From Novipirellula aureliae (GTDB taxonomy: Bacteria > Planctomycetota > Planctomycetia > Pirellulales > Pirellulaceae), in NCBI RefSeq assembly GCF_007860185.1, contig NZ_SJPY01000005.1, positions 248,001 through 312,000 of the forward strand: 64,000 nucleotides of DNA, in the 5' to 3' direction. Below are positions 7,320 to 47,821 of this stretch, piece by piece. Made by a program: the position numbers and the translations under genes. The notes under the pieces were generated by a model. The model was not told where the DNA came from and made no database searches. It saw only the letters and a list, made by a program, of their open reading frames with translations. Positions within the stretch are counted from its first letter, which is position 1. Every line of letters begins with the position of its first letter.

Positions 7320-7336
7320 GTTGTCGTTTCAATAAG

Positions 7337-7409: not shown

Positions 7410-7466
7410 ATGTTGTTTGTTGTGTTCGCCGCGGGTGATTCCGTCGGCGCATATCTTCCTTGTCAG

Positions 7467-18386: not shown

Positions 18387-20084
18387 TTACACCGCTTTTT
18401 GTTTCTCCCTCACATCGTCGACGATCGCACGCAATTCGACAAGATCATCGATTGCGTCGTCTGGCGTCGGTACACCAAAGCCTCGCAGCGATGCTCGGTC
18501 ATGAGCGGATGTGAGATCACAACAACGCTTGAACAGCTTTTGTAGGCGCTCACATTGGTCCAGCGTGATCGTCGAAACCTTCTTCAGGTTACCAAGACTG
18601 ATGTAATCTTGATGCCGAGTAACGATTCCGAGAAAGAGCTTTTCTTCGACGGCCCGCTCGACGGTTGCACGTATATCACTGTATAGCCCAAAAATCGAAC
18701 GCTCGTATTCGTCATCGTTGTGGGCGTCGAAATCACTTCGAGTTGCTCTTGCGCGCTTTTCTAACTCATCGATCCTTGGCAGCGTCTTTTGGGCGATCCA
18801 TGGCAGCCCGTCGTTCACGAAGCCACAGTTATCTCGATCCGATTGCACCCGTCGCAACTCGATCGGAACGCCATTTTGTTCCGCTCCACTCACGATGTCG
18901 TGCAGGAAAACGATATCGTGCGTAAAAATGATGACTTGCCGGTCGGCGGCTTCTTCAACCAACCGCTTCGCGAAACAGCCTCGCCAATAGTGGTCGAGCG
19001 ACGTTACCGGGTCGTCAAATACGACAGTCGACTTCGTTGATTCAGTCGCAAGCTCGGATAAGAACCCAGCCAGAGCGATGCAACGATGCTCACCTTCCGA
19101 GACGACCGTGCCCACGTTCGCATCGCTGGCACCGACAAGCTGTACACGGTAGTAGGTGCGTCCGTGCCTCCCTTCGGCAGCAACCAGCTCCACGTTCAGC
19201 CGACGAACGCCTTGCTGCATTTTCTTGATCTCGTCGGAAAAAACATTGCGGAGCCGATCGGTCACATAAGACTTGGCCAGCTCTTTGCTTTTTGTCGTGA
19301 TGGCGGTCGTCTTGGTGTCCTTGATCGCCTTTTTCAATTTGGTGATATCGCTAAGTCGCAAAACATGCTCTTTCACGTCACCCAGTACCGTTGCCAGCCA
19401 TTCACGGGCCTGTAGCTCTGCGAGTTCATCCGATAGCTTCTTACGTTCTGCAGCGTCGGCTGACTTTTCCGTTTCAGATGCACGAACAGCGACTTCTTTG
19501 ATGAGCGCCCCTAGTTGGTCGCCAACATCGTTGAGCGTACCGGGGACGTCAAATGACCAATTGCTAGACTCTTGTGCGGATTGAACCGCTCGCCAGCGTC
19601 GAAGCAGAGTTGCAAGCTGATCCCGCACTGCCTGAGCGACCGCCTTGTCGACGGCGTCCACGTCCTTCAACTGCTCACGGAGGCCTTCCCCACGGAGATC
19701 AAGTTCCTCTAATGCGTCCACAGCATTCGTTAGGGTGATCGCTGCTTTTGCAGATTGCTGGGCACTGTCGTCACGAACAAACTTCTCGAAACGCTTCAGC
19801 CGATCCTTTGCATCGTCATCGAGTGTCTGTTGACATAGAACGCAAACTGTATCGTCGGTTTCAGTAACAGGAAAATCTGCGTCAGGGATTGCAACCGTGG
19901 AGAACCGACGGGCTGCTTCCCATAGTTCTCGCCAAACAGGCTCGCCGATCTCGTCCAACGGATCATCATTGAAGTTCATTGATGCCGCCGCCCGAGCAGC
20001 TTTGGCTTTGACCGCAGCGTCGGTGGCAAGAGTTTTAATGACAATGATCGCCTCGTCGGACAGTTTTTTTTTCAGCTCCAGCAA
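18387..20084 (-). CDS. SMC/RloC-like AAA ATPase, C-terminal part (frameshifted gene)
   Basis: 565 codons holding the coiled-coil and C-terminal ATPase half. A CxxC pair (VCVLCQQTL, about residue 80) is placed like a Rad50/RloC zinc hook between coiled-coil arms. Then comes a signature-like stretch (VVSEGEHRCIALAGFLSEL), Walker B VVFDDPVTSLDH and the H-loop QVIIFTHDIVFLHD, all typical of AAA_13/RloC-type ABC ATPases. It continues the ORF at 20035-21054: the frames meet in an A9 run near 20066-20074, where loss of one A gives AGAEKKLSDEA. Relatives with this layout act in DNA repair or phage defence; no nuclease domain is recognised here. Confidence 0.8.
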   Translation of the reverse strand: MLELKKKLSDEAIIVIKTLATDAAVKAKAARAAASMNFNDDPLDEIGEPVWRELWEAARRFSTVAIPDADFPVTETDDTVCVLCQQTLDDDAKDRLKRFEKFVRDDSAQQSAKAAITLTNAVDALEELDLRGEGLREQLKDVDAVDKAVAQAVRDQLATLLRRWRAVQSAQESSNWSFDVPGTLNDVGDQLGALIKEVAVRASETEKSADAAERKKLSDELAELQAREWLATVLGDVKEHVLRLSDITKLKKAIKDTKTTAITTKSKELAKSYVTDRLRNVFSDEIKKMQQGVRRLNVELVAAEGRHGRTYYRVQLVGASDANVGTVVSEGEHRCIALAGFLSELATESTKSTVVFDDPVTSLDHYWRGCFAKRLVEEAADRQVIIFTHDIVFLHDIVSGAEQNGVPIELRRVQSDRDNCGFVNDGLPWIAQKTLPRIDELEKRARATRSDFDAHNDDEYERSIFGLYSDIRATVERAVEEKLFLGIVTRHQDYISLGNLKKVSTITLDQCERLQKLFKRCCDLTSAHDRASLRGFGVPTPDDAIDDLVELRAIVDDVREKQKAV

Positions 20085-21054
20085 GCGAACGACTCAGTGT
20101 CGTGATGCGGCCACCTTGGACGCGAGTTTTTATCGCTTCCGCTTTCGGATCAGAAGCCAACTGAATCGGAAGCTTTTTCAACCGTTTCAAGTCGTCGTCA
20201 TTCAAAGATGCCAGCACGTCCAAATCATCAGGCTTCGTCGACCCATTTAGGTTGGCCAGCGTTCTTCCCACCTTCGTATCGCCGGTCGCATGTTGGTTTC
20301 GCAGAAATGAGGGTGTTTCACTTTCGAGACGTTTCTTTTCCGCATCCAGCTTCGCCTGAATCGAGCGGCATAGATCGCCGAGTGTTGGCAGGATTTCAAG
20401 ACCAAACGGGATGAAGGCGACATCGTTCTTGTCGCGAACATGCACCGAGGCACAATCGGAATCGAAAAAGCTGATGGAACCGAGTCCATCGGGAGACTGC
20501 TGCCCGTCGATCCATTTTGCAGGGGATTGATCGACATCATCGACAGCATGGGTGATAACCGCACTGGCGGGTTCGTCCGTCGCATCGCCCATCACATTGG
20601 GCAGGATCGGATCGCCCTTGCTGCGGGCACGACAGGCACGACGCAAAATCCGCCCGTACCCGCTCTTCCCCGATCCGTTGTACCCGAACACGACCGTTAA
20701 TCCGGATGCAGCAAACAGCAACTCCTGATTTGAATCTAGAGCGTTGACGTTTTCAGTTTCGCAAATCGATCGAAGCGTGATCTTGCGGCCCGCCTGATCG
20801 CGAGAAGGAATGTGCTCTGCCGCCAGTAGCGTCAGGTCCGGTGCCGAATCTTCGCTCAAGCCATGAGCATCACGACAAGCTGCCGTGAGTTCATCCGTGT
20901 CAGTGCGATCGAAGCCGCCCTTTTCAATGATTCGCTGCAACGCATCGCGTTTCCAGTGCGATTGGTCGCTCGACCACGCAAGGATGTCGTCGTGAACCGT
21001 CATGCCTGCCCTTGGTCGCCGTCTGCCCGTGCTGCTCATTTCCTTAAATTCCAT
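20035..21054 (-). CDS. SMC/RloC-like AAA ATPase, N-terminal part (frameshifted gene)
   Basis: 339 codons with an N-terminal region of about 115 residues (helical, unrecognised), Walker A VVFGYNGSGKSGYGRILRR, FFDSDCASVHV, a FIPFGLEIL segment and the beginning of a coiled coil. It ends prematurely with TVRRGDHCH after a poly-A run; the intact gene would be about 870 codons over 18387-21054. Alternative starts at M6 and M18 exist (AAGGA upstream of M6). The two halves could be an error, a true lesion or slippage-based expression control. It stands alone, upstream of the attC cassettes on the opposite strand. Confidence 0.8.
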   Translation of the reverse strand: MEFKEMSSTGRRRPRAGMTVHDDILAWSSDQSHWKRDALQRIIEKGGFDRTDTDELTAACRDAHGLSEDSAPDLTLLAAEHIPSRDQAGRKITLRSICETENVNALDSNQELLFAASGLTVVFGYNGSGKSGYGRILRRACRARSKGDPILPNVMGDATDEPASAVITHAVDDVDQSPAKWIDGQQSPDGLGSISFFDSDCASVHVRDKNDVAFIPFGLEILPTLGDLCRSIQAKLDAEKKRLESETPSFLRNQHATGDTKVGRTLANLNGSTKPDDLDVLASLNDDDLKRLKKLPIQLASDPKAEAIKTRVQGGRITTLSRSLAGAEKKTVRRGDHCH

Positions 21055-24418: not shown

Positions 24419-24512
24419 CTGGAAAGCCGGATGCAGGGAAAGCTTGCACGTCCGGTTTGGGGTTGGGGCCCGGGTGAGACTCCCGGGCCTACACCACTCT
24501 CCGTCGGCAGCC
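24419..24512 (+). mobile_element. Group II intron 3' fragment (domains V-VI)
   Basis: AGCCGGATGCAGGGAAAGC followed by TTGCACGTCCGGTTT folds like intron domain V, with the AGC triad and a GAAA tetraloop. A GGGCCCGGG/CTCCCGGGCC hairpin follows as a domain VI candidate. No reverse-transcriptase ORF is present. Confidence 0.5.
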
Positions 24513-35530: not shown

Positions 35531-37095
35531 TGGCCGACTTGAATGGCACGTAGTTATTTCGTAAGTCCTTCCAGTATTTGACGTTTCGCTTCGTGTCGAT
35601 GCACGTGCAGGAAGTCATGATGCTTTCGAGTAGGCTGTTTAATTTTCCTTGGTTCAAAGCGGTCTGGTCTATCTCCAACTCGATGGATTGAAATTACTGC
35701 GATCATTTGGTCGTACAATTGCTGCCGGAAGTCCGAAGGACAGTGTCTCAAGTTCGCAAGGACTGGTTGAAAAGCCTTCAGCGTTTGCAGGGTCATTTTG
35801 AAACTAATCGTACGCGGTTCTATGTCGATTTCGTGAGCGGCCCTGGCCATGATTGTGCGAATCAGGTTGTAGGCAAGAACATGAGTCCAGATTTCCTTGC
35901 GAACAAGATCTGGAGTCTTGCAACGCAGCATGTCCATTTGCAAAGTCGTTTTCAATGATCGGATGTCCAACTCGACATTCCATCGCTTGCGGTAGAGCAA
36001 GGCGAGTTCTTCTTTCGGATACTCAATCGGATCAAAGAGGGTTGTGACGACGACAAGCACTTTGCTGCGGAAACCTGGTCGAGCGATCTGAATGCGACAG
36101 ACTCGCACCTTTAGGTTGTCCGGCAAGTTCTTCCGATAGGCGTTGGATGCCTTTGTACGTCCGCGTCGCTTTGGCCAGTTCACGATTTGATCGTCTTTGC
36201 CAAGGCGTTGCCCACGACGGAAATCAAGCTTGCGAGTGGTAGCATGTCTGACGATAAAATCCACGCCACGGGTTTGAAGTGCGGTCAGTTCACCCCAGGA
36301 ACACATAAGTCGATCTGCTACCATAATGTCACCCGAACGAAAGACATCCATTAATCGACGGAGTAAACCGAGTTCGCTTTGGCCTTTACCCGAGTATGCG
36401 CAAATTGCCATGTCGACGACAGCTCCGCACGAAAGTGAAAAGATAGTGCACACTCTCGCCATTGGACGCCCTAGACCCGGCCTTTGAGACGACGGCTGGG
36501 GATATTCTGATTGATTATCTGCCGTGTCCGGCATTTTTACCGTCGTGCCGTCGTACAGATAGACGCGGCGACCATGCCACAGCCACTCAGCTTTAGCAAT
36601 CTCATCAAGGGCGCGCCCTGTTCTGCGTGCAACATCTGAAAAGAACTTCTCAGGCAGTCGTTTTCGTGCCTGACAATAGGCGGAAGTCTCTGCCGAACAA
36701 GGGCTTTGATTGCGTGAGATCCTGTGAGCAATTAACCGGGCGACAGCCGATGCACACGACTGATCGGTGCTCAGGATTTGCCCAAGAAATACCCAAAGAG
36801 TTACGAGCGGCGAGTAGACCCTTTCTTTCCAACAGACGCCATTTTGAGACAGTGCATCGGAAATAGACCGTTCTGAAAGAACGTCGGTGAATGGTAGACC
36901 GTCGCCCTGTAAGAACTGACGACGCAAGAATCTGATCTGTTCACGGAATGCACTATGGTTCAAACTGCCCATCACAGAGGCCTCCTTGCCGAAGATGAAG
37001 TTGTGGTAAACCCATCTAAGCAAGTGAGGCCTTTCTTGTATATGTCGTTTTAGTGAAACGAGTTAGCGATAACTACGTGCCATTCGTGGCCGACG
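35531..37095 (-). mobile_element. IS4-family insertion sequence, intact
   Basis: The ends share GAATGGCACGTAGTTAT in inverted orientation (35541-35557 and 37069-37085), with weaker matches (GGCC) outside. It encloses one transposase. The right end lies inside a small membrane-protein gene of the ubiquitin-like operon. A fragment of a related element is at 23950. Confidence 0.8.
35554..37023 (-). CDS. IS4-family DDE transposase
   Basis: A 489-residue transposase. DDE motifs: D in VYLYDGTTVKMPD (about 155), D in DIMVADRLMCSW (about 240), and the IS4 signature with E in LLYRKRWNVELDIRSLKTTL (Y-(2)-R-(3)-E-(6)-K). The C-terminal segment VRKEIWTHVLAYNLIRTIMARAAHE is conserved in planctomycete and proteobacterial IS4 members. 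A downstream ATG (MGSLNHSAF) 18 codons later may be the real start. It cuts and pastes the surrounding element. All motifs are intact, so it is probably active. Confidence 0.9.
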   Translation of the reverse strand: MLRWVYHNFIFGKEASVMGSLNHSAFREQIRFLRRQFLQGDGLPFTDVLSERSISDALSQNGVCWKERVYSPLVTLWVFLGQILSTDQSCASAVARLIAHRISRNQSPCSAETSAYCQARKRLPEKFFSDVARRTGRALDEIAKAEWLWHGRRVYLYDGTTVKMPDTADNQSEYPQPSSQRPGLGRPMARVCTIFSLSCGAVVDMAICAYSGKGQSELGLLRRLMDVFRSGDIMVADRLMCSWGELTALQTRGVDFIVRHATTRKLDFRRGQRLGKDDQIVNWPKRRGRTKASNAYRKNLPDNLKVRVCRIQIARPGFRSKVLVVVTTLFDPIEYPKEELALLYRKRWNVELDIRSLKTTLQMDMLRCKTPDLVRKEIWTHVLAYNLIRTIMARAAHEIDIEPRTISFKMTLQTLKAFQPVLANLRHCPSDFRQQLYDQMIAVISIHRVGDRPDRFEPRKIKQPTRKHHDFLHVHRHEAKRQILEGLTK

Positions 37096-37350
37096 CCGGA
37101 TGCTCCGGTCTTTTCGACCGTGCGAATGTTTAGCGTTCAGATCTGTCCATGGAAAGGCAGACTTTGGATTTTTCCAATTGATTTTTCCTTTACGTGGCCA
37201 CTGATAGTTAAAAAAGGAACGCTGTGACCGCCCCGAAGGGCGGCCACGACGTTCCGGTGGTTTGCGGCGGTGGTGGCGACTGAGTTTGCTGGACTTGTAA
37301 TACCACCATGCGACGACGCCGATGAGGATCCATCCTGCTAGACCTTCCAT
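37063..37350 (-). CDS. Small membrane protein, 3' end replaced by IS
   Basis: A short protein starting MEGLAGWILIGVVAWWYYKSSK, i.e. one N-terminal membrane span followed by a basic tail (SRHHRRKPPERRG). The last dozen codons run into the IS4 terminal repeat, so the original C-terminus is lost. It is the final gene of the ubiquitin-like operon in the visible order, 66 bases after the E1-like gene. A role in anchoring the system at the membrane is possible but only inferred. Confidence 0.5.
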   Translation of the reverse strand: MEGLAGWILIGVVAWWYYKSSKLSRHHRRKPPERRGRPSGRSQRSFFNYQWPRKGKINWKNPKSAFPWTDLNAKHSHGRKDRSIRRRPRMARSYR

Positions 37351-37415
37351 CTGACCTCAATCGAGAATGTGCGGGGCTGGGTGCCTTGTTGAAAGCTAAT
37401 GACCCATTCGTTTCG

Positions 37416-38081
37416 TTAGGATGCGTCGCGGACGGTCCATTCGCCGGATAGCAAATTGATGCTGGTGTCGGCGTCCGTTGGGATGTCGCGGAGCCAACGT
37501 GTGAACTGATGGACCATGATCCCCGCGGCGATGCTTGCGGCATAGATCGTGCTTCGCGATGTGCAGGTCCCTCGCTGGGCTTCGGACGCAGCAAAGAGTG
37601 TGGAAGCGTAGTGGGCTTCGGCATCGCTATCCGTAACGGAAAGCACTCGCAGCACTTCGCCGAGCATCCGGCCATCGGCCCAAAAACCAACTCGCGATCG
37701 AATCGAACGCCAAATCGCCGTGCGCGCCATAATCGAGTCGACGCAGCAGAATACCACGTTGCCAATCTCTTGACGTGGGCGAAAGCGATCTTCCACCCGA
37801 ATGACTTCGATGGTGGGGTCGATTTCACTAATGGCTTGTGAGGTTGCGAACGGTTTCGACCAGCCGATTTCATGTTTTCGGTAACCTTGCGTTGTCGTGT
37901 TGGACAAGTCAACGCTGTCGAAGTCGATCAATTGGATTCGCGGCGTTCCGATTGACGCGAGTTGCAACGCAACTTGACGACCAATAGCGCCGACGCCGAT
38001 CACCGTTGCGGTGACATCCGCCAACCGGTCCATGGGGACCAGTTGGCTTTGACGTTCAAAACGATTCTGAGCCACGTTCAA
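37416..38081 (-). CDS. ThiF/E1-like ubiquitin-activating enzyme
   Basis: About 221 residues if translation begins at the TTG at 38081, which overlaps the upstream TGA (TTGA) and follows GGAGG; a GTG at 38141 would give 241. It has the nucleotide-binding Rossmann motif [33 protein letters not shown] (Asp for ATP/Mg), [14 protein letters not shown] and [12 protein letters not shown], and a catalytic-Cys candidate in [18 protein letters not shown]1/ThiF enzymes adenylate the C-terminus of a ubiquitin-like protein and usually form a thioester. It lies next to JAMM, E2-RING and UBL genes, which makes a conjugation rather than a cofactor role likely. No Cys-rich sulfur-transfer partner is present. 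Confidence 0.9.
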
Positions 38082-38749
38082 CTGACCGCCTCCAAGAGAC
38101 TGTCGCTCCAGCGATCGGCTGCTGAAGGAGTTTGCTCCCACCAGTCCAAGTCGTAAGACTCGGCAAACGGACGACGCGACGTAAACGGATCGTCGACGGT
38201 CACGTTGTCACAGTATTCGATAAACCACGCTTCGTGATCGGCTGCGGGGAACTCGAAGTCGAACTCGACACGAGACCGCAGGCGTCGTTCGGTGCCGGGG
38301 CCGACGTTGAAACGTGCTCGCGTGTAGGTGTTGCCTTCTACAGCGATGATGTGCATCACCGCCCAATTTACGCCTCCGAAACAACGCTCGAACGTTTCTT
38401 CATCCGTGCCGCTTGGAGACGGCGAGGCACCGGGGTGTGTGTGAATCCAGATTCTGGCGAATTGCTCTGGTTGTCGTCCCATGTCGACCTGTTGGTCGAA
38501 GAAGTCCGCGACGCTGTCGTCGTCGAATTCGACCGAGACGACCGAACAGACTTGTTCAACAAGTTGGATGTCTTCGACGAGTAGCAGATCGTCAGCGTTG
38601 GAGATGCCGAACCCGCCGACTTCGCTGGGGCCGACGTCACGCAGGTACAGTAGCTTTGCCATCGCATATGGCGTGAACCGCAGCGACCGTTTGTACGGTG
38701 TTGCGGCTTTCTTCTTCGCTCGCTTCGTTTTGTTTGCTGATGCAATCAT
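38078..38749 (-). CDS. JAMM/JAB metalloprotease (deubiquitinase-like)
   Basis: About 223 residues from the ATG at 38749 (AAGGA upstream). The JAMM motif is complete: Glu in PSEVGGFG, then [21 protein letters not shown] (HxHP with S-x-x-D), so zinc-dependent isopeptidase or peptidase activity is expected. The C-terminal 60 residues are acidic and W-rich. In related bacterial systems this enzyme trims the UBL precursor and removes it from targets. The UBL of this operon ends GAI rather than GG, which could require such trimming. Coupled to the E1-like gene by a 4-base overlap. Confidence 0.9.
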
Positions 38750-39662
38750 CACAGGTTCCTTCAAAGAGACAGGTGTTACAGAAAGAATCGCCGCAGTCGT
38801 TACACGACTTCAGGCACATTTGACAGACATCATCGACACAGCAACCACAGGACGAGATGCATTCACTGCAAAACCGGTCGCCGCACGAATCGCACGATGT
38901 GCTGCAATCCAGGCAAAGTTCGGTTTCACATTTACAGCAGCCAACGACTTTGTCTTGGTCGACGTTGTCGCCGCATGCTTTGCAACTGACTCCGTTCCAA
39001 TCTTCGATTTGCACGTAGGCCGAATCGGGGTTGTAATTCCGAAGCACGTGATCGACGATGCAGAAGAAGTCATAGATGCGGCCCTCATCGAGGGCACGCC
39101 GGATCGCGTCGGAACCTTCCCCTTCACAAAGCGATTCGCCTTGCACGTGAGGATGGGTAACGCTGTGGTTGGATGATGGGTAGTTCGGTTCCACTGCGAG
39201 CACGTCGTAGGGCGACGTCTCTTTGATAAATTTCCAGTTCAAGAAAATCTCGAAACTTCCCAGTTCAACGTACTCCAGTGAGATACTTGATGTCCGAACC
39301 GTAATTCGCTGGTTTGCACGATCGATCGTCACGTGTTCAAACTCGCCGCGGAGCCCTTCGATGTCCCGATAGACGGACGTTTCCGTCGGTTCGAGATGCG
39401 GCTTGGTCTGGCGAGTCAAATTGTCGATGGCGTGAGTCGACCGCATTCGCAGAATGTCGAGTGCCCCACCCAGCCTGTCGGCGGAATCGTTCGCTGCGGC
39501 CTTCCAGTTCCTTGCATTGGCTAGTTCAAGCCGTCTTCGCCAGCGACGACACTGATTGAACGATTCGTCCAGTGCAGTCATCGCCTTGGGGGTTGGAACG
39601 CCTTGAAGTGCTTGCAGGATATCGACTGCCGCCCGGTAATCGTTCTTGAGTTCCTTCTTCAT
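38637..39662 (-). CDS. E2-like conjugating enzyme fused to RING-like Cys-rich domain
   Basis: About 341 residues from the ATG at 39662 (GGAG upstream; a GTG at 39704 is the alternative). Residues 1-100 are helical. Residues 110-225 look like a UBC/E2 fold: ISLEYVELGSFEIFLNW, YDVLAVEPNYPSSNHSVTHPHV, then QGESLCEGEG, where the Cys after the HPHV flap occupies the E2 active-site position, then a helix and VDHVLRNYNPDSAYV. From about residue 230 a region with over 20 Cys (CKACGD, CCKCETELC, CDSCGDRFC, CGCCVDDVCQMC, CNDCGDSFC) forms treble-clef/RING- or B-box-like repeats. E2 and E3-like functions would thus be in one chain. It overlaps the JAMM gene by 113 bases on this reading. Confidence 0.8.
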   Translation of the reverse strand: MKKELKNDYRAAVDILQALQGVPTPKAMTALDESFNQCRRWRRRLELANARNWKAAANDSADRLGGALDILRMRSTHAIDNLTRQTKPHLEPTETSVYRDIEGLRGEFEHVTIDRANQRITVRTSSISLEYVELGSFEIFLNWKFIKETSPYDVLAVEPNYPSSNHSVTHPHVQGESLCEGEGSDAIRRALDEGRIYDFFCIVDHVLRNYNPDSAYVQIEDWNGVSCKACGDNVDQDKVVGCCKCETELCLDCSTSCDSCGDRFCSECISSCGCCVDDVCQMCLKSCNDCGDSFCNTCLFEGTCDDCISKQNEASEEESRNTVQTVAAVHAICDGKATVPA

Positions 39663-39744
39663 TGCATTGGCTCCAAAAGAAGCCCAATCGAGATGGCCAG
39701 CCACTTACAAACCGACCAGCCCGACTGGGCAATGAATGCGGATA

Positions 39745-39966
39745 TCAAATAGCGCCTTCAATTTTGAGCGGTGTGAACGAAACGCGGTCTCCGTCGCGGA
39801 GCGGTTGATCTGCCGCAGCGGGTTGGCGGTTGACGCGGATCAAATAGCTGTCGGCATGGAATGTGCCGACGTGCCGCTCGAACATTTGTTGGACGGTAGT
39901 GTTGTCGGGAGCTTCGACGTGGTGAGCGTAGCCTCCGGCGTCATTTGAGATGAGCAGTACCTTCAT
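39745..39966 (-). CDS. Ubiquitin-like beta-grasp protein
   Basis: A 73-residue protein: [32 protein letters not shown], then [33 protein letters not shown]. The strand-helix-strand order and the RVNRQPA...[11 protein letters not shown] end match MoaD/ThiS/ubiquitin-type beta-grasp folds. The C-terminus is GAI, not GG, so processing or a non-standard acyl end is implied. It lies directly upstream of the E2-RING gene. It is the probable modifier conjugated by the E1 and E2 of this operon (inference). Confidence 0.8.
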
Positions 39967-40091
39967 ATTTGGTTCTCTTTGGTTTCTGGGAAGTAAACTT
40001 ACGTTTGGAAAAACGAAGCCGCCGCTGTCCCCGAATGGGGAAGCGACGGTTCGTTACGGTTGGGTGCTTTTTGCGATGAGGTTTCATCGCG

Positions 40092-40310
40092 TTAGCAGAG
40101 TGCGGCTTCGGGGTCGAAGCGGCCTTCATCGAGATCCTTGCGAAAGAGGTCGAAGTCGTCCCAGTCGATGACCCGACCGCCGTGCACGGGATCGGTCGGT
40201 TCTTCGATTGGAATGGACGGGTCCAGAATCATGAAGCCGAGGCGTTTGACTGCGGTGACCGTGTCTCCGGTAGCTGCCGCCACGGCACGATTGAGGTCGT
40301 TTTGGTTCAT
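40092..40310 (-). CDS. Small protein with HU-like N-terminus
   Basis: A 72-residue protein from the ATG at 40310 (AAGGAA upstream). The opening MNQNDLNRAVAAATGDTVTAVKR has the helix pattern of HU/IHF N-termini, but the remainder (LGFMILDPSIPIEEPTDPVHGG...DWDDFDLFRKDLDEGRFDPE) is acidic and different. It lies between UBL and an 85-residue protein. No function is known; co-transcription with the ubiquitin-like genes is clear from orientation and spacing. Confidence 0.65.
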   Translation of the reverse strand: MNQNDLNRAVAAATGDTVTAVKRLGFMILDPSIPIEEPTDPVHGGRVIDWDDFDLFRKDLDEGRFDPEAALC

Positions 40311-40410
40311 GGGAAAGGTTCCTTGCAAACAGGGAAAAACGAAAAAAGCCCCGTTCAAGTGACTTGCGTCATTCAAACAGGGCTTTGGGAAAACAATGAT
40401 GATGGAACGG

Positions 40411-40668
40411 CTACTCGTCGTTGCAAGTCAGCCAATTCTGCTGAAGCCAAGCAACTTCCGCTGCCAAAGCTTCGCTACGTTTGATAAACGGACCTAGAAC
40501 GGGGCCGTTGACGGGGGCGAGATCTGCGAGCCAATCGCCTGAGAGTGTCGGCTCGACGTGAGATCCACGCCGGATTGCGATCGCGCCAAGCGGACGAAGA
40601 TCGAGCAAGTCATCGAATACAGTCTTTGTCTGACCGCCGGGTAAAATAACCACTTCGATCGACTTCAT
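40411..40668 (-). CDS. Hypothetical 85-residue protein
   Basis: MKSIEVVILPGGQTKTVFDDLLDLRPLG... A small mixed alpha/beta protein with no motif that I recognise. Its ATG overlaps the stop of the preceding gene by 4 bases (ATGA), so the two are translationally coupled. Residues 55-80 are a helix (FIKRSEALAAEVAWLQQNWL). Part of the ubiquitin-like operon. Confidence 0.65.
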   Translation of the reverse strand: MKSIEVVILPGGQTKTVFDDLLDLRPLGAIAIRRGSHVEPTLSGDWLADLAPVNGPVLGPFIKRSEALAAEVAWLQQNWLTCNDE

Positions 40669-41609
40669 CGTGGGCCTCGGATGATGTTACGCCGTGGACG
40701 GTCGGTCATCAGTTCGTCGAGGCTCGACTCGACCTGCGTCAAAGAACAGGCCACGCGATCACGCAAGGATGTTCGGTCTCGTAGGTCTTGTGGATTCACA
40801 CCATTAATCACTTGACGAGCATTCTCGACTAATTGATCGAGATCTTCGTTGCTACCGATGTTGAGATGTTGGAACCGTTCAAAGAACTCCGTCAAATTCG
40901 TGACGGCGGTGTCACGGAAAACCTTGGGTTTGCCATCGACCGATCCAGCCAATCGTTCGGCCAAGTGGCTGACCAATTGGCTAAGTTCCTCGGCGAACGT
41001 TTGTTCGGCAAGCTCGACAGCCTCGGTAAACTTCGCTTGGACTCGTTGGCACTCTTGTTCGTAGACAGCCGGGTTCACCGTTCTGAGGTAGGCCGGTGGC
41101 GTCACGGAAGGGAAGTCCCACGCGAGCGCGAACAGGTCCGACATCGACGCGGGATAGTCGGCTGGATCAAATAGGTGACCGAGTTGGCACCGAGCCTGAT
41201 CGACAAGCTCACTAAGACAGCGGTCTAGTTCGTCGACCGCTTCAGCGAGTTCGTCGCGAATGGTATTCATCCTATCGTCAAACTCCGAAACGTCGCCACG
41301 GCGAAGCAGACGTACGCCGGGTTCGATGTATGGCAAGGTCATCCCTTTCCACAGTGATCCTGCCTTCGTTTTGATCGCCGATACGGCGCGGAAGGATGGG
41401 TGCGAAGTATCGAACAGACGCTTTGCGGCAGACAGCGTGCGGCTATCCGCATCAAACGCACCAGCCGCTTGTTGTTTTTGGTCGCGGCTGAGACTTTTCC
41501 GCGTTCCCGGCCAGCGGATGTGCAACCGCACGGCCGTTGTTCCGGCTTGCAATCGCGCTGCATGCGTCGCTTGGTTCTCGGTAACAGGTTCATCGAGCGT
41601 GGTGCTCAT
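40665..41609 (-). CDS. Helical hypothetical protein (DUF3150-like)
   Basis: About 314 residues from the ATG at 41609 (GGAGAATCC upstream). Almost entirely helical, with long amphipathic stretches: MNTIRDELAEAVDELDRCLSEL, VQAKFTEAVELAEQTFAEELSQLV, and WDFPSVTPPAYLRTV in the middle. The layout and the DFPSVTPP-type centre recall DUF3150 proteins, which often accompany AAA+ ATPases; this assignment is tentative. It directly follows the AAA+ ATPase gene and probably acts with it. Confidence 0.6.
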   Translation of the reverse strand: MSTTLDEPVTENQATHAARLQAGTTAVRLHIRWPGTRKSLSRDQKQQAAGAFDADSRTLSAAKRLFDTSHPSFRAVSAIKTKAGSLWKGMTLPYIEPGVRLLRRGDVSEFDDRMNTIRDELAEAVDELDRCLSELVDQARCQLGHLFDPADYPASMSDLFALAWDFPSVTPPAYLRTVNPAVYEQECQRVQAKFTEAVELAEQTFAEELSQLVSHLAERLAGSVDGKPKVFRDTAVTNLTEFFERFQHLNIGSNEDLDQLVENARQVINGVNPQDLRDRTSLRDRVACSLTQVESSLDELMTDRPRRNIIRGPR

Positions 41610-41703
41610 GGATTCTCCTTGAGTTGAGTGGGTGTTAGTCGTTCGGATCATCAAAGCGAAGCCTCTCGATCAGTGCTTCGATCTCGATGGCATGTCGATC
41701 GCA

Positions 41704-43197
41704 TCAGTTCGCCGATGGTTTGGCACGCGAGACCCGCCTTCGAGATTGGGGCTTCGTTTGGTGCTGGTAGATCCCTGACTTCTCCGCGTCCAAGCATCGT
41801 CCACTGGCCCATTGCCGAAGCCGATCGACCGATTCGGATGCTGTCACGGCAACGGGGACCACATTCAAACCCGCTTGGGAAAGCGGGGTATCAAGCAATG
41901 CAGCCAAACGGCAGCACGCTCGAATTTCTGCGCCGGTCCACTTCGCGTCCTCGGGACGTTTCTGATTCGCATCAAGATCAAACATCGCGATGTACTGATC
42001 CCAAATGCGATTCTTTTGCTCACGCTGAGGCAGATCAAGGAACACAATCCCGTCGAAACGCTCCGCACGCGATAGCTCAGGCGGCATGCGCAAAATATCG
42101 TTGCACGTCGCGATCAAATAAACGTTTGAGGTGTGGTCGTTCATCCAACTGAGCAACGTGCCCAGCATGCGCGATGATACGCCCGAATCGTTTTGTCCTG
42201 ATCCAGCCGCGCCACTGAGAGCCTTTTCGATCTCGTCAATAAACAGGATGCAGGGTGCCATCGCATCGGCGATGTTCAACGCTCGACGAACGTTTTGCTC
42301 TGTCTGGCCCACAAGGCTTCCCATCAGCGCACCGACGTCAAGAATCAGCGTGGGACGCCCGGTCTCTTTTCCCAACGCTTTCGCAAAGGCTGACTTCCCC
42401 GTGCCTGGCACTCCCAGCAACAAAACGCCGCGAGGCCTCTTTAGCGGATTGTCACGACCGTGTTGAAGCAATGACCGTTTGCAAAACGCTTTCAAGCTGC
42501 CGAGCCCGCCGAGTGACGAGAAGTCGTCGTGGCTCTTATAGAGCTGAAGCAAGCCGGACTTCTTAAGCATGCTCGCCTTCAATTCCCAAACGGATTCGGG
42601 CTTAATGACGGAGTCACGAACCAGACTCAAGCCGAAAGCGTTTTCCGCTTCGAGCCTAGTCAGGCCCATGGCGGCGTCGAGTACCGTTTCGAGCCGATCA
42701 GCACTGGGTAATTCGCCGTCCTCGGTCGCGATTCCTTCGGCAATCTCTTTGAGTTGTTCGCGAGTCGGCAATGGATGCTCGATGACAACGAACAGTTTTT
42801 CCAGTTCGGTCGGGATTTGAACGACTGGTGACAATACGATAAAAATGGTTCGGCTTGCTTTTCCATCAACAATTTGTCGTGCGAGTGCTTGAACGATCTC
42901 TGTAGAACCGAGAAAGCGATGAAAGTTCGTCAGAACGATGATAGATGCGGTGTCATCAGCCCCCAGCGACTTCATCGCGTGAATCGCGGCCAACGGGTCA
43001 GACGCACCAGCGTCATCGGTTGACGCAGCTCCCGGCACACGCAGGCCCTGGTCAATGTCCCAGGTGGCGAGTCGCCATTGTTGTTCGTGGCATAGTTGTG
43101 AAATTTCGAGCAACGCATCGTCGTGCTCGTGCGATTCGATCCAAATGCCGGTGAAACAGGCTCGCACCAGTTCCATCAGCCGATCGGATAGTTTCAT
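41704..43197 (-). CDS. AAA+ ATPase (Ycf46-like)
   Basis: About 497 residues from MKLSDRLMELVRACFTGIW. The N-terminal 230 residues form a non-catalytic domain ending in a helical lid-like region (MGLTRLEAENAFGLSLV). The AAA module: Walker A LLGVPGTGKSAFAKALGKE, Walker B CILFIDEIEKALSG, sensor 1 NVYLIATCNDI and arginine finger ELSRAERFDGIVFLDLP. This two-part layout matches the Ycf46 family, which in plants and cyanobacteria sits near Ycf35-like proteins; a Ycf35 (DUF1257) gene is three genes upstream here. Probable unfoldase or remodeller linked to the ubiquitin-like system. Short basic tail SRRRVSRAKPS. Confidence 0.9.
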   Translation of the reverse strand: MKLSDRLMELVRACFTGIWIESHEHDDALLEISQLCHEQQWRLATWDIDQGLRVPGAASTDDAGASDPLAAIHAMKSLGADDTASIIVLTNFHRFLGSTEIVQALARQIVDGKASRTIFIVLSPVVQIPTELEKLFVVIEHPLPTREQLKEIAEGIATEDGELPSADRLETVLDAAMGLTRLEAENAFGLSLVRDSVIKPESVWELKASMLKKSGLLQLYKSHDDFSSLGGLGSLKAFCKRSLLQHGRDNPLKRPRGVLLLGVPGTGKSAFAKALGKETGRPTLILDVGALMGSLVGQTEQNVRRALNIADAMAPCILFIDEIEKALSGAAGSGQNDSGVSSRMLGTLLSWMNDHTSNVYLIATCNDILRMPPELSRAERFDGIVFLDLPQREQKNRIWDQYIAMFDLDANQKRPEDAKWTGAEIRACCRLAALLDTPLSQAGLNVVPVAVTASESVDRLRQWASGRCLDAEKSGIYQHQTKPQSRRRVSRAKPSAN

Positions 43198-43223
43198 ATT
43201 GATTCCTCTGGGTTGATGTTGGT

Positions 43224-43880
43224 TTAGGATGTAGTCAATTCGGTGATCGTTGACATCCAAGAGAGAATTTCTCCTTCTCGATCTTGCTCATCGAGGAGTG
43301 CCACCGTCATGTTCTCGACCGCTTGGGTATTGAGCCATCGCTTCGCACGGTTCGCCATACGGCTTTGCGAACGACGGGCTTGCAACTGCCAAGCGATCTC
43401 GCCTGGGCGCTGCCGATACAATTCGCGTGCGGTTAGCTCGGCAACGCAATCGAAGTCGTCGAAATGAACGCGAATGCCTCCGGCGGCGAAGATGGCCTCG
43501 GGATGCAGATAGTTTTCTAAGCACCGCTTTTTGGTGAGAACCGCTTGGCACCGCGGGCGTAGGTTCACGGATTTAGCGGCTTCCAAACGAAATTCGGTCT
43601 CCGGTGGAAGCTCATGGTCGTAGAGATGAAATTCGGGCCGAGCGAGCGGAGCAAGACGTTCTGCCCACGCTCGAACATGCCCGCCGCCGAATGGAACGAA
43701 GAGCAGTTCGCCACATCGTTCCATTTCAGCCAGATTCGGTAGGCTGCTGTCGTTGGCATGAAGCATCAGCGAAATGCGTCGTAAGAACTCGATGTCATTC
43801 ACACCTTCGACGACTAGCAGTAGCTTTACCGAATCCTTGATTGCCCCCTGTGACGTAAATGTCTGTTTGAGCGTGTCGAT
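43224..43880 (-). CDS. TOPRIM-domain protein, apparent AUC start
   Basis: The frame from 43880 reads IDTLKQTFTSQGAIKDSVKLLLVVEGVNDIEFLRRI, containing the TOPRIM Glu motif (LLVVEGVND) typical of OLD-family and primase TOPRIM domains; DDFDC may supply the later Asp motif. No ATG, GTG or TTG precedes this motif in frame after the upstream stop. AGGAG lies five bases before an ATC that overlaps the previous stop (TAATC), so AUC is the likely start. The first GTG would cut off the catalytic Glu. Length about 218 residues. TOPRIM proteins cleave or bind nucleic acid; the role here is unknown. Confidence 0.7.
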   Translation of the reverse strand: MDTLKQTFTSQGAIKDSVKLLLVVEGVNDIEFLRRISLMLHANDSSLPNLAEMERCGELLFVPFGGGHVRAWAERLAPLARPEFHLYDHELPPETEFRLEAAKSVNLRPRCQAVLTKKRCLENYLHPEAIFAAGGIRVHFDDFDCVAELTARELYRQRPGEIAWQLQARRSQSRMANRAKRWLNTQAVENMTVALLDEQDREGEILSWMSTITELTTS

Positions 43881-44074
43881 TAGTTCTCCTGTTGGTTTTC
43901 AGTTTGGGTTTGTGATTGGAGGCCGTAAAACTCACTGGTGAGTGTTTCGGTACGTTTGGTGCCAAGAGCGGATTTCAGGAAGCGACTCGCCTGGCGGCAT
44001 TCGCTTCCTGAGAAACCCTGGGTCTCGACCTTCGATTCACCGTTCGGTGAGATTACGATTAAAATGGTTTTCAA
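43880..44074 (-). CDS. DUF2997 protein
   Basis: A 64-residue protein: MKTILIVISPNGESKVETQGFSG..CRQASRFLKSALG..TETLTSEFYG. This is the full DUF2997 pattern; these small proteins usually neighbour DUF1257 (Ycf35) and AAA+ genes, as here. The ATG overlaps the stop of DUF1257 by 4 bases. Possible role as a subunit or substrate adaptor of the AAA+ partner (inference from neighbourhood only). The Q/E/N-rich tail is unusual. Confidence 0.8.
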   Translation of the reverse strand: MKTILIVISPNGESKVETQGFSGSECRQASRFLKSALGTKRTETLTSEFYGLQSQTQTENQQEN

Positions 44075-44439
44075 TTTCCGCTCCCAACAAGAACTGTGAG
44101 CTTGATGGAACCATCGGCCAACGATTGCTCGGTGACCGGGTGCCCCTGTTTTCGAGCTTCAAGAATTGATTTCTCAACCGCGTAGCTTTGGATTAGTCGA
44201 TCAAGGTGTGCCTGTTCGCCCCAGTGCCCGTCGTAGTTGTCGTATTTCACGACTCCCGCTTCCGTGTTACAGACGACCGGATATCGCCAGCGAGGCAACT
44301 GAACGCAATAGCCAGTGGCTTGATCGCTGAACAACTTCACGGTTTGATGGACCGGTTCGTCCAGTCGCATCCGTCGACAAGCGGCTCGCAGTGCCATCGG
44401 GTCGCGGATCTCGACTGAAATCGTAACGATGTGTGAGAT
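44071..44439 (-). CDS. DUF1257 (Ycf35-like) protein, apparent AUC start
   Basis: About 122 residues. Family members begin MSHxxTI; here the frame reads (I)SHIVTISVEIRDPMALRAACRRM with ATC in the place of ATG, and AGGAG six bases before it. The first in-frame ATG (44397) would remove the conserved first strand. The middle has VQLPRWRYPVVCNTEAGVVKYDNYDGHWG and YAVEKSILEARKQGH, as in Ycf35 relatives. In cyanobacteria and here it pairs with DUF2997 and a Ycf46-like ATPase. Function is not established. Second case of AUC in this operon. Confidence 0.75.
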   Translation of the reverse strand: MSHIVTISVEIRDPMALRAACRRMRLDEPVHQTVKLFSDQATGYCVQLPRWRYPVVCNTEAGVVKYDNYDGHWGEQAHLDRLIQSYAVEKSILEARKQGHPVTEQSLADGSIKLTVLVGSGN

Positions 44440-44468
44440 GGTTTTCTCCTTTGTAAATGGGTTGGTGC

Positions 44469-44972
44469 CTATGCTGAGTCATCCGAAACTTCGGCTGAGT
44501 CAGTCAGCCGGCGAGGTGAAATGTTATCGCTTCGGTTCAGTAGCAACGGTTGCTTGGCGGTAAGATCATCGAGCATGATTTCAACCAGGGCTTGTTCGTC
44601 TCCTGTAGCTGGCGGACGGGCAAGCAGTAGCCAAGCCAGAACAAGGGGCAACGAACACGCCAGCAGCAGTCCCACGTTAGTGATCGCTGCCGCGACAAGT
44701 GAATCCCACCGTCGTTGAGACGCAATCGCGTGCCGCTCGCTTTCGAGGCGATCGCGTTGTTGGCCAATTGATGCCCGTTCCGATTGAACATCGCGTTGTA
44801 GTTCGACGACCTTGCGATGTAGTTCTGCCGTATCACGGTTCTGTTCGGCTTGCCGTTTCTCATGTCGTTCCGACATGTCAGCAAGCCGACGGTTTTCGTC
44901 CTCCTCACAGCCGACCGTCGTCAGCATCACGATCGTCGCGAGCGGAATGAGTAGGATGTGGTTTGTTCGCAT
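44469..44972 (-). CDS. Lipoprotein-like coiled-coil membrane protein
   Basis: About 167 residues from the ATG at 44972, which follows GGAGGT. The N-terminus MRTNHILLIPLATIVMLTTVGC is a lipoprotein-type signal with a Cys after VG. A charged coiled coil follows (about 25-90: RRLADMSERHEKRQAEQ... LQRDVQSERAS), then one membrane span (ITNVGLLLACSLPLVLAWLLLA) and a cytosolic acidic tail. It would place a coiled coil outside the membrane and connect it to the operon's cytosolic proteins; this is inferred from topology only. Confidence 0.7.
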   Translation of the reverse strand: MRTNHILLIPLATIVMLTTVGCEEDENRRLADMSERHEKRQAEQNRDTAELHRKVVELQRDVQSERASIGQQRDRLESERHAIASQRRWDSLVAAAITNVGLLLACSLPLVLAWLLLARPPATGDEQALVEIMLDDLTAKQPLLLNRSDNISPRRLTDSAEVSDDSA

Positions 44973-45102
44973 TAGACCTCCAGCGATCAATTAGACGTTT
45001 CAAGATAAATTGCAATGCCAGTCTCAATCGACGTTCTCTGACAAATGCATAGACAGTCAGAAGCAATACGATTGAGAGGAATGCAAGAACAAGATGTGCC
45101 AA
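44905..45102 (-). CDS. Small membrane protein, TTG start
   Basis: A 65-residue protein from a TTG at 45102 preceded by AAAGGAGGTG. LAHLVLAFLSIVLLLTVYAFV is a single membrane span, followed by a basic tail (RERRLRLALQFILKRLIDRWR). Its end overlaps the start of the lipoprotein-like gene, whose ribosome binding site lies within it. It is the probable first gene of the ubiquitin-like operon. Confidence 0.5.
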   Translation of the reverse strand: MAHLVLAFLSIVLLLTVYAFVRERRLRLALQFILKRLIDRWRSNANKPHPTHSARDDRDADDGRL

Positions 45103-45195
45103 ATCGGCACCTCCTTTCGTGTTGTGGATTGGTTTTTTGTTGTGTGGCGGAGCTAGCATATTCTTTCAGTAATATGCCCCGATTTTGCTCCGAAT

Positions 45196-45457: not shown

Positions 45458-47515
45458 TCAACGTGACCGTCGTTTCTTTCCGCCGTTGTAGGCCACCTTC
45501 GGCGGTTTCTGACCTTGCATCTCGTGCCAACGCCGATAACTGTACCAAACGTTTCCTGAATTGACCTTATGCCCCTCACGCACGAGCTGATTCGCGGTCG
45601 CGCGATAGCTCATGCCTTCGACGTCAATTAATTCATGGACGCGCTGGGCAATTGCGTCCAGACGAGGTGGTTTACGAAGCCAAACAGTTACTTCATCTTC
45701 ATCGGTCGGAGGATCGCCCAATGGTGCCGAGCCAGCAGTCGTCGTCAGGACCAAGCGCGGGTGAAACGATCCGCGGACATTCGTCCGTTTGCGGTTCGCC
45801 CGACGCTCGACGTGTACCCAGATCTGTCCGCCAGTCAGTGACCGAAATATCGCCAATGCCTTATAGACGGCAACCTCACCAAGTTCGCCTGATGCTGCTT
45901 CGGTGAGCAGCGTTGACATCTCGGAAAGGTTTTCTCGGATTTGTTCGACCGTCAAGGTATTCGTGTCGCCATCAATAATCCGCTGCAAGCGATTGACTTC
46001 GCTTTGAGCACCCGTGCGTTCGGACTGCGCCGCACGAAGACGAGCTTTGGTCTCTTTCCGGTCATCGTCGGAACCTTCGCCGGACATTTCGAACAAGTCG
46101 TTGACGCGATTGCCGAATATCCTTAACCGCTTTTTTGCCTGCTCAAGTTGGGTTGCAATTCCGTCGTCGGCACGGCCATCCATCTCCTGGCTCTTTAGGA
46201 TGATAGTCTCGACCAACTCAGCATCACGCGAAATGAGCTCGGTCAAACTTTTGCAAATGGACCGCACCGATTTGTCACTGCGAACCGTCGCCTTGCAAGG
46301 ACATTGGTCTCCATTTTTACACTGCATTGCCATTCCGGTTACACCAACTTTGTAAAGTCTGACTGGCGAGTCCTCAGTGCTGCAACAGGCGCAGAAGAAG
46401 AGTTCGGTCGTCAAATCCCAGAGATGCTTCTTGCGTTGCTTGCGTGGACCGCGCGGTCCCGTTTTCCTCGCTGCAAATTTTGCCTGGAGGGCAAAAAATG
46501 TTTCATCATCGAGAATGCGAAGCTCTTCCCGTTCAAGGGTGGCGACTTCGTCGTCCGACTGCTCGACTTGCTTGACACTGTCGAGCTTCGTGGAAAATTG
46601 ATTTCGGCGACGACCGAACTCCCACCTGCCGATCAATCGCGGATTTGTGAACAGCCGACGGTATGGCCCATACATCATCTTCATCGTTGACGATCGGGGA
46701 TCGACCGGCCCATTGGCCGCATTCCAACGACGGACCCCTTCGCTGGTCGACATGCCGTCCAGCAGGAGTTGGGCGTGTTCCTGAATTAGCTTTGCAGCCA
46801 ACGGATCAACTTCGGGCATCGTACGAGGGCGTTCGCGTTTGGTCAGTGGCGCACCGGGAATTTCTTTTCGGCGGTAACCAACACCGATAGCCCCTGTCGT
46901 CCAGTTGTTTAGAAATATTCCGCACAATCCCGAACGGACGTGGTCGGCGATTGCGTCGAGCAACATGTCGTCCATCAATCCGTGAATTTGCAATTGCAAT
47001 TTCCATGTCTTGCGATCGCCCGTATCAATGCCTTGTGAAACACTGACCGCACGCAAACCTTCCTCGACGACTTCTTCGTTTATGAATTGAAAGCCTTTTC
47101 CCGCCTGTCGGAACAAGCGACTCGCCTTGAAAACAAGCAGCACTTTTGCAAGATGCTTGTTCAGAATGGTCTTGGTTCGATTAAGACCTTCGCGACGAAC
47201 GCTTCGGCCCTTCGCGGCCTCGTCAACTGAAATCAGTTCTGGCGGAACGTAAATGCTGTTCTTTGCTGCCCATTGGATGCACTCACGGACTTGGTCGTCG
47301 GTTGAGTTTTGCAGCTTGGTGCTAAAACGCGAGTAAATCGTTCCAATCTCGAATCCATTTGAAATCGCCCATGCGATTCGAGTTTCTGAAGTCGACTCCG
47401 GGTCGAAACCAACGAGGTCAATGTTGTGAATCGCGGCCATCTCTGCCCACCATTGGTGAGCCCTGCGGGTGAGTTCTTGGTTAGCAGCACCCATGCTACG
47501 AATTTCATGGTTCAT
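45458..47515 (-). CDS. Large serine recombinase 2
   Basis: About 685 residues from the ATG at 47515, preceded by AGGAGG. An N-terminal extension of about 55 residues precedes the resolvase domain, whose nucleophile context is FEIGTIYSRFSTKLQNS, followed by ELISVDEAAKGRSVRREGL and KVLLVFKASRLFRQ. The Recombinase domain comprises YGPYRRLFTNPRLIGRWEFG. A zinc-ribbon-like Cys cluster (FFCACCST, CKNGDQCPCK) and a coiled coil (about 470-530) follow, then a C-terminal helix-turn-helix-like part (MSYRATANQLVREGHKVNSG). It is only distantly similar to the recombinase at 8641. It probably mobilises a segment of this island. Confidence 0.85.
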   Translation of the reverse strand: MNHEIRSMGAANQELTRRAHQWWAEMAAIHNIDLVGFDPESTSETRIAWAISNGFEIGTIYSRFSTKLQNSTDDQVRECIQWAAKNSIYVPPELISVDEAAKGRSVRREGLNRTKTILNKHLAKVLLVFKASRLFRQAGKGFQFINEEVVEEGLRAVSVSQGIDTGDRKTWKLQLQIHGLMDDMLLDAIADHVRSGLCGIFLNNWTTGAIGVGYRRKEIPGAPLTKRERPRTMPEVDPLAAKLIQEHAQLLLDGMSTSEGVRRWNAANGPVDPRSSTMKMMYGPYRRLFTNPRLIGRWEFGRRRNQFSTKLDSVKQVEQSDDEVATLEREELRILDDETFFALQAKFAARKTGPRGPRKQRKKHLWDLTTELFFCACCSTEDSPVRLYKVGVTGMAMQCKNGDQCPCKATVRSDKSVRSICKSLTELISRDAELVETIILKSQEMDGRADDGIATQLEQAKKRLRIFGNRVNDLFEMSGEGSDDDRKETKARLRAAQSERTGAQSEVNRLQRIIDGDTNTLTVEQIRENLSEMSTLLTEAASGELGEVAVYKALAIFRSLTGGQIWVHVERRANRKRTNVRGSFHPRLVLTTTAGSAPLGDPPTDEDEVTVWLRKPPRLDAIAQRVHELIDVEGMSYRATANQLVREGHKVNSGNVWYSYRRWHEMQGQKPPKVAYNGGKKRRSR

Positions 47516-47821
47516 CGTTGAACCTCCTAAAAAATGATTCTGCTGAAGCGACTGGGCAACATGCCTAGACTTCGCTGAATCAAGGGAAAGGTCCAAAACT
47601 AAAAAGAGACGTTCCGGTGGCGATCCGATGAGCGGAATTCCGTACCGAAAGCGTTTGCCAAAAAAGACATGGCTTAGATGGAAGCTGTGCTACAGCCTTG
47701 CACTCAAGGCCAAAAACGAATGCCGCTAAATTGCGAATAGCTTGCTTGCGATTACTCGATCTACATGACGCGTTCTTACCTTCGGCTTAGCAAGCCGAAC
47801 ATAAAAAACTGCGCAATGAAA
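47516..47821. other. Intergenic, 5' of recombinase 2
   Basis: About 300 bases with no credible gene; expected to hold the recombinase promoter and perhaps an attachment site, but nothing specific is recognisable. Confidence 0.35.

Follow-up and report, generated by a model that had tools for sequence, protein, structure and literature searches.

The stretch of DNA analysed here (the window) comprises 64,000 nucleotides of the 7.27 Mb genome of Novipirellula aureliae (contig NZ_SJPY01000005.1, positions 248,001 to 312,000; G000:C5:248001-312000 in our notation, where G labels genomes, C contigs and L fetched loci) and carries a putative cassette for ubiquitin-like protein conjugation. Its 14 genes form one minus-strand run from 45159 to 37063, with intergenic gaps of -128 to +125 bases, in the order tmA, tmB, DUF1257, DUF2997, p192, AAA, p329, p85, p94, ubiquitin-like protein (UBL), E2 with a zinc tail, JAB, E1 and tm95. 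Two modules are joined in this run, one for conjugation (p94-UBL-E2-JAB-E1) and one that we call the motor module (DUF1257-DUF2997-AAA-DUF3150-p85). A large serine recombinase is encoded directly upstream, and a 13-bp direct repeat encloses recombinase and cassette in a compact set of 10.4 kb from one repeat to the other. A preliminary description had reported an operon with a UBL, an E1, an E2 fused to a RING-like domain, a JAMM peptidase, an AAA+ ATPase, DUF1257 and DUF2997 proteins, a DUF3150 relative and a TOPRIM protein; these main parts were all recovered among the 14 genes, whereas two conserved small proteins (p85 and p94), the upstream serine recombinase and the 13-bp repeat had been overlooked. 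The cassette proteins were scanned with Pfam, PADLOC and NCBIfam models, and the features are as follows:

47608-47620, minus strand: 13-bp direct repeat CCACCGGAACGTC, upstream end (0.01 expected in the window; 3 in the genome)
45458-47596, minus strand: large serine recombinase, 712 aa (PF00239 8e-14, PF07508 1e-10)
44905-45159, minus strand: tmA, small membrane protein (KD19 2.49), seen again in other loci
44469-44990, minus strand: tmB, membrane protein (KD19 2.46), seen again in other loci
44071-44397, minus strand: DUF1257 (Ycf35-type) protein (PF06868 8.2e-5)
43880-44074, minus strand: DUF2997 protein (PF11211 1.4e-12)
43224-43802, minus strand: p192, predicted OLD-type TOPRIM protein (motifs, predicted structure)
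41704-43260, minus strand: Cdc48/Ycf46-like AAA+ ATPase (PF00004 2.9e-30; profile against Cdc48/p97 chains about 1e-60)
40665-41654, minus strand: p329, DUF3150-related protein (family tie through the distant member in L154)
40411-40668, minus strand: p85, small conserved protein (20/29 conjugation loci with long upstream sequence; Manganitrophus plasmid 2.3e-30)
40092-40376, minus strand: p94, small conserved protein (29/29 of the same loci)
39745-39966, minus strand: UBL, 73 aa, C-terminus KIEGAI (ThiS 0.0025, under the cut-off)
38637-39704, minus strand: E2-like protein with a Cys-rich (RING-like) zinc tail (active-site residues; weak fold matches)
38078-38764, minus strand: JAMM/JAB peptidase (PF14464 2.1e-6 and motif)
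37416-38141, minus strand: E1 (ThiF-type), 241 aa (PF00899 6.6e-21)
37063-37350, minus strand: tm95, small protein with weak hydropathy, of which the first half alone is common to other copies
37248-37260, minus strand: 13-bp direct repeat, downstream end (repeat counts in window and genome as above)

In the E1, residues R27, R30 and Q31, the GxGxxG motif, D73, D75, K96, D135 and the pair C193-T194 are invariant in 23 of 23 aligned rows, and we take the C-T pair to be the catalytic motif. The JAB protein carries the JAMM motif E...HxHx7Sx2D, with H108, H110, S118 and D121 in all 23 aligned rows and E48 in 22 (the last has a gap), while its profile gave no match among solved structures at 0.01. 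The active-site His and Cys of the E2 are found in all 57 rows of an alignment built from the window protein and 56 out of 61 candidates. The active-site pattern is also seen in the five candidates that are not in this alignment, namely L123, L124, L160, L162 and the second one of L155. Over all 104 E2 matches the pattern occurs in 93, the other 11 being eight contig-edge fragments and three diverged viral copies (L158, L159 and L160, first set). Best match of the zinc-tail profile is Midline-1 (0.0028), followed by TFIIH p44 (0.015), with FYVE and TRIM21 also present, and the Pfam scan of the 57 E2 members returned no RING family; the VIA-align matches of the E2 fell on its N-terminal helices. 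The E1 ATP-binding residues and conserved Cys, the His and Cys of the E2 and the JAMM motif thus fit, as far as sequence can tell, a general ubiquitin-like conjugation system. By E1, the nearest named relatives are Rhodopirellula maiorica SM1 (88%) and Neorhodopirellula pilleata (82%), in a comparison from which records very near the window may be omitted.

The UBL itself is less readily assigned, its ThiS match lying under the cut-off and its profile reaching, among solved structures, only a MoaD at 0.96 and one chance row. Its end is well conserved: 22 rows have KIEG, the remaining one of the 23 has KVQG, and Ala comes next in every row. All 85 UBL matches have at least one residue after the conserved Gly (12 end straight after Gly-Ala, the remainder mostly in short and some in long tails), so that a protease must expose the Gly. 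Polyubiquitin-like tandem UBL proteins, in which the final two repeats close with VEGA or VQGA, are encoded at L160:4525-5190 and L161:4312-4977, and together with the tails they imply that the UBL is processed.

The AAA+ ATPase keeps its Walker positions in 28 of 28 rows, save for one Ser/Thr exchange. The label Ycf46-like is our assumption, with no Ycf46 model among its Pfam and NCBIfam matches; the protein is 31.5% identical over 95% of its length to a cyanobacterial plasmid AAA protein that adjoins a DUF2997 gene. The tie of p329 to DUF3150 rests on one distant member of its 34, the protein of L154 (4.7e-19), and neither the window p329 nor the other 33 aligned members match DUF3150 in Pfam. 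For p192 the conserved frame continues upstream as far as about position 43844, with no start codon of the usual kind. Read upstream in this frame, so as to take in the motif LLVVEGVND, it gives a confident predicted structure (predicted local distance difference test, pLDDT, 93.9), which is closest to the OLD nuclease C-terminal domain (Foldseek 3.2e-4), then to Gabija GajA (8.8e-3) and then to retron Eco2. Of the OLD-type TOPRIM motifs (EGxxD, DxD/E), E, G, D and D are present in 15 of 15 p192 rows, and the last position is E in 13 and D in two. Pfam gave no match, and the profile found nothing of note among solved structures; by motifs and predicted structure p192 is an OLD-type TOPRIM protein. 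L006 and L021 lack p192, which at first suggested a random insertion, but we rejected this idea because many other loci keep the protein in the same slot.

In a sample of 392 genomes of the phylum, E2 was found in 15 (one of them, G026, by a weak match) and UBL in 14, all of which also encode E2 (Fisher p 8e-25). The motor protein p329 is present in 29 genomes, some by weak matches, including 11 of the 15 with E2 (Fisher p 5e-11), so that the refuting condition named in the preliminary description, a lack of joint conservation in other genomes, does not apply. Of 60 relatives, 11 gave an E2 match, one of these (G399) being just a fragment with stops, and copy number varies: one relative has seven E2 matches, whereas the other two members of the genus have two matches and, in G392, none. 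Among E1 relatives in the genome collection, of which the best 80 of 137 were kept, loci with enough upstream sequence also carry JAB (71/71), E2 (54/55) and UBL (47/49). In the 29 conjugation loci with at least 8.8 kb upstream, p94 was found in 29, p329 in 21, AAA in 20, p85 in 20, DUF2997 in 19, DUF1257 in 18, tmB in 18, tmA in 17, the recombinase in 14 and p192 in 10; AAA was also found in 13 of 20 further neighbourhoods, some of which are the same loci as the others. Pairwise distances over 38 loci, after removal of nine duplicate or partial ones, correlate between the modules at 0.36-0.54 and within them at 0.32 and 0.49, none of 999 permutations reaching any of these values, and this similarity indicates that the modules are not freely shuffled. 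Candidates for a spread beyond planctomycetes among the 80 loci kept (Chloroflexota L078, Emcibacter L083, Kuenenia L106 and Hydrogenedentota L131) are short metagenome-bin contigs and were not counted.

The cassette looks mobile. It has the layout of a serine-recombinase element, with a large serine recombinase at one end and a short direct repeat, in the same orientation, at both; the third genomic occurrence of the repeat lies at the matching place in the C5-start part of an apparent second copy. That copy is split over two contig ends, with E2 to E1 at the start of C5 (94.7% DNA identity over 2.3 kb) and AAA on C16 (89% over 1.15 kb), the genes upstream on C16 being 38-71% alike in protein. 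More diverged copies, with 38-63% protein identity for most genes, lie on C7, where a tyrosine recombinase is found upstream (PF00589 2.4e-6), and on C14, where the copy is cut at the contig end and DNA polymerase A and SNF2-helicase genes are nearby. Of 29 loci that have both tmA and UBL, 12 encode a recombinase of the window family upstream of tmA, on its strand and no more than 3.5 kb away; among these 29, L052/L128, L055/L145 and L062/L075 are single loci fetched twice, and L055/L145 is counted twice in the 12.

Three further observations concern the ends of the cassette and its copies. A DDE transposase gene (PF01609 2.6e-22; 35554-37023, minus strand) adjoins the downstream end. A remnant at G000:C5:380068-380325, which keeps no more than the last part of the E2 zinc tail and the first part of JAB, resembles a decayed further copy. 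In Rhodopirellula maiorica SM1 (L072, 2040-2377) an extra inverted copy of the downstream end (window 37201-37485) lies on the opposite side of the locus.

The motor module also occurs on its own. We fetched 20 p329 loci, 19 of them from genomes without E2, and found DUF1257, DUF2997 and AAA in 19, p85 in 18 and p94 in 15, with no match to UBL, E2, JAB or E1 in the 20 (L210 is cut off near a contig end). The same module, including p85 (2.3e-30) and a DUF3150 protein in two pieces, is present on the Candidatus Manganitrophus plasmid CP114554, where a JAB-domain gene lies near the module (5.3e-5) and none of nine proteins compared was a convincing E1, E2 or UBL; on a cyanobacterial plasmid AAA, DUF1257 and DUF2997 stand beside Hsp70 and GrpE. 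Its occurrence in plasmid and other loci that lack ubiquitin-like genes therefore speaks for a joined module rather than a dedicated partner. In cyanobacteria a cluster of DUF2997, ycf35 and ferredoxin has been described, as far as the available part of that paper goes (PMC4284462). A small protein family with about 52 conserved residues was also seen between cassette genes, at L197:12355-12549 and in 27 other open reading frames (ORFs), none of the 28 in the window.

Genes for DNA metabolism recur next to both modules. A homologue of the beta sliding clamp, whose profile matches 21 solved clamps (best 2.1e-7), is encoded in 8 of the 20 motor loci; among conjugation loci it lies close behind E1 in L086, L087 and L120, and 8.6 kb off on the other strand in L128. 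In L206 the clamp is followed by a PD-(D/E)XK nuclease (PF12705 1.2e-30), and L195 has a nuclease of the same kind (4.8e-21), these two members, both outside conjugation loci, being the ones tested with PF12705. The nuclease family occurs within 0.5 kb of E1 in L076, L092 and L130 and 3.4-3.9 kb off in L120 and L144. In L212, a locus of a different family within the phylum, one protein matches the clamp C-terminal domain (8.1e-6, slightly below the cut-off), and a weak Gam match and AAA_24 are present as well.

Related E1 proteins are encoded by 13 IMG/VR loci. L152, which contains the complete planctomycete cassette together with a recombinase, may be of bacterial origin. In L154 both modules are present in another gene order (UBL-E2-JAB-E1-AAA-p329-p85-DUF2997), which argues that they act together; its DUF3150 protein had no match in the phage collection. 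Among ten viral-contig neighbours in all, picked by eye and compared with PHROG, those near the conjugation genes of L153, L155, L157 and L158 matched DNA polymerase, primase, helicase, SbcC, a UvsX-like protein, exonuclease VIII and a processivity factor, and one neighbour in L162 weakly matched terminase (3.5e-5). Two sets of E2, JAB and E1 are found in L158, its near copy L159, and L160, and two of JAB and E1 in L161. Both E2s of L155 have HPN, the eukaryotic E2 form, where others have HPH. One viral E1 is matched by 82 phage-collection records, many of them Bacteroides crAss-like phages; in the crAss-like cr111_1, genes for ThiF and a metalloprotease lie between those for primase, uracil-DNA glycosylase and exonuclease, and the remaining neighbours match neither the UBL nor the E2 profile.

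Bacteria are already known to encode ubiquitin-like conjugation systems that include a JAMM peptidase, and the PRTRC plasmid cassette places ThiF, JAB and UBL on mobile DNA. Compared with PRTRC, the E1 of our cassette scores 25.5 bits against a ThiF cut-off of 144.75, and no PRTRC-type ParB was matched among the 14 genes. BubCD is a fused chain, and Bub operons are likewise ubiquitination-like operons of bacteria: in a comparison covering some Bub entries, the E1 profile reached Citrobacter BubCD at 3.3e-10, the latter being one 458-aa chain as opposed to the separate 241-aa E1 here. The prokaryotic RING/E2 systems of Burroughs, Iyer and Aravind (2011) are said to unite E1, E2, a RING-type zinc protein, JAB and UBL, and the conjugation half may already be listed there. 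The Manganitrophus plasmid resembles the cassette in the motor half, whereas the conjugation genes of the window cassette were not convincingly found there. Bil (BilABCD) has UBL, E2, JAB and E1 in one operon, as here; however, the available part of its description (PMC11354881) gives BilA a pair of UBL domains and BilD a pair of adenylation domains, while the cassette has one of each (73-aa UBL, 241-aa E1; BilD model 0.0015) together with a motor module and a zinc tail. The operons of Iyer et al. (2006; PMC1779556) share separate UBL, E2, JAB and E1 genes and a sporadic, mobile distribution, and type 6d shares a helical partner protein. In the accessible text of that paper no AAA+ partner is named ('AAA' occurs 0 times) and no zinc-tailed E2 appears, both of which are present here, and the 6d E2s lack the usual His that is kept in all 57 rows of ours. 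The FtsH ternary vWA-MoxR systems (Kaur et al., 2020; PMC7159879) also combine a full UBL conjugation set with AAA+ proteins, planctomycetes included; the MoxR, vWA, double-FtsH, UBL-E2 fusion with EAD1 and caspase-like effector given in the available portion were not matched in the cassette. The passages available from PMC12660748 and PMC7824862 do not describe this gene combination. Within the literature searched, where some likely papers were beyond reach, we found no paper on a conjugation set with Cdc48-like AAA+, DUF1257, DUF2997 and DUF3150, in line with the preliminary statement that no named system matches, and the coupling of ubiquitin-like conjugation to a Cdc48-like AAA+ with these partners in one operon may be new.

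We tentatively favour the view, while leaning slightly towards doubt, that the cassette is a recombinase-borne, mobile-element ubiquitin-like pathway that acts on DNA-bound or replication proteins, with the AAA+ module as remodeller. The JAMM peptidase or another protease would cut the UBL after the conserved Gly (KIEG|A...); the E1 would adenylate the UBL and hand it on, probably via its C193, to C193 of the E2-like protein, whose zinc tail may be a built-in E3 or a target binder. The UBL would then be joined to its targets, most probably proteins that are bound to DNA or serve replication, whether of the element or of its competitors. The Cdc48-like AAA+ ring could extract the tagged proteins from complexes, with DUF3150, DUF1257, DUF2997 and p85 as possible adaptors or scaffold, and the JAMM enzyme would take the tag off again. 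The conserved gene set could thus carry out the tagging, unfolding and untagging in one pathway that had been proposed. The basis is the sequence record (gene set, conservation, catalytic residues, mobility signs, co-occurrence and the DNA-metabolism neighbours of relatives), and from it we infer the biochemical steps, the targets and what the element gains. Should the coupling prove real, a tag-and-extract pathway resembling ubiquitin-Cdc48 would exist in bacteria and their mobile elements, and the sliding clamp, TOPRIM and nuclease neighbours in relatives suggest action on DNA-bound complexes; it would then become testable whether mobile elements were the first home of DNA-linked ubiquitin functions. 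In sister loci the same motor is accompanied by a dedicated clamp, and tandem-UBL versions lie in the replication blocks of viral contigs; it is tempting to speculate, as an unlikely but specific version, on a mobile-element counterpart of the eukaryotic Rad6/PCNA/Cdc48 axis, in which the zinc-tailed E2 would tag a beta-type clamp or replisome proteins and the Cdc48-like ring would read the tag.

Several observations weigh against the favoured reading. AAA is missing from 9 of the 29 conjugation loci, so the motor is not obligatory, and common host descent inflates the distance correlations. Fold matches of the E2 are weak. The similarity to other copies runs 47 bases beyond the downstream repeat, through a terminator-like hairpin, which tells against a simple attachment (att) site, and the search for an empty insertion site gave none, as neither of the other two genomes in the genus has an intact flank. 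Genes for a clamp or nuclease are absent from the window copy, the sole clamp-profile match in its genome (C1, 2.5e-10) is perhaps the ordinary DnaN, and three full-length members of the clamp family gave no match when compared with Pfam clamp models.

The main rival is a defence cassette against phages or plasmids, in which the UBL would be put on invader proteins or conjugation would arm a response, with TOPRIM as nuclease in some loci. We regard this as possible, if on the doubtful side. The patchy, multicopy and mobile set fits such a role, Bil is listed as an anti-phage pathway in the available part of PMC13373217, and the structural neighbours of p192 (OLD, then Gabija GajA and retron Eco2) point the same way; but TOPRIM is present in only 10 of 29 loci, and according to the same text Bub operons have not shown protection. 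PADLOC matches of the AAA to IetA (9.8e-23) and of the E1 to E1-E2 models (3.8e-13) would also suit defence, yet both scores are at the level of the broad families (NCBIfam IteA 71.8 bits against 510), and no toxin-like effector was matched in the cassette by the Pfam, PADLOC and NCBIfam scans. The related E1/E2/JAB sets inside replication blocks of viral contigs also speak against it, and the neighbours of the relatives (sliding clamp, PD-(D/E)XK nuclease, TOPRIM and viral replication genes) point more to mobile-element DNA metabolism.

An improbable alternative is that tagging and untagging serve the stability of the element, retaining the cassette or controlling the recombinase, with no role in replication. 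Addiction was proposed for similar operons in the text available from Iyer et al. (2006; PMC1779556), and the recurrent position of the recombinase upstream of tmA (12/29) would agree with it; other copies, however, have a tyrosine recombinase or none nearby, and family searches identified no antitoxin-like pair. Least probable is host protein quality control through a bacterial ubiquitin-Cdc48 pathway for misfolded proteins. A Cdc48-like AAA+ does adjoin the UBL pathway, and relatives of the motor lie beside Hsp70 and GrpE on the cyanobacterial plasmid, but E2 was detected in only 15 of the 392 sampled genomes, is multicopy and has a patchy distribution even inside a single genus, and Pfam scans matched no protease partner in the cassette. 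Quality control as a cell function, which the preliminary description had considered, therefore does not hold up well for a set that is patchy, multicopy and mobile-looking and whose AAA/DUF module also occurs without ubiquitin-like genes.

Elsewhere in the window, 27 tRNA genes with many different anticodons (ARAGORN) lie within 6.7 kb on the minus strand (807-7538), followed by an ORF (8641-10194) that by eye resembles another serine recombinase. Two adjoining minus-strand ORFs of 339 and 565 aa (18387-21054) seem on inspection by eye to form a single SMC-type ATPase gene split over two frames, and an Rfam group II intron match (51 bits, cut-off 40) lies on the plus strand at 24422-24497.

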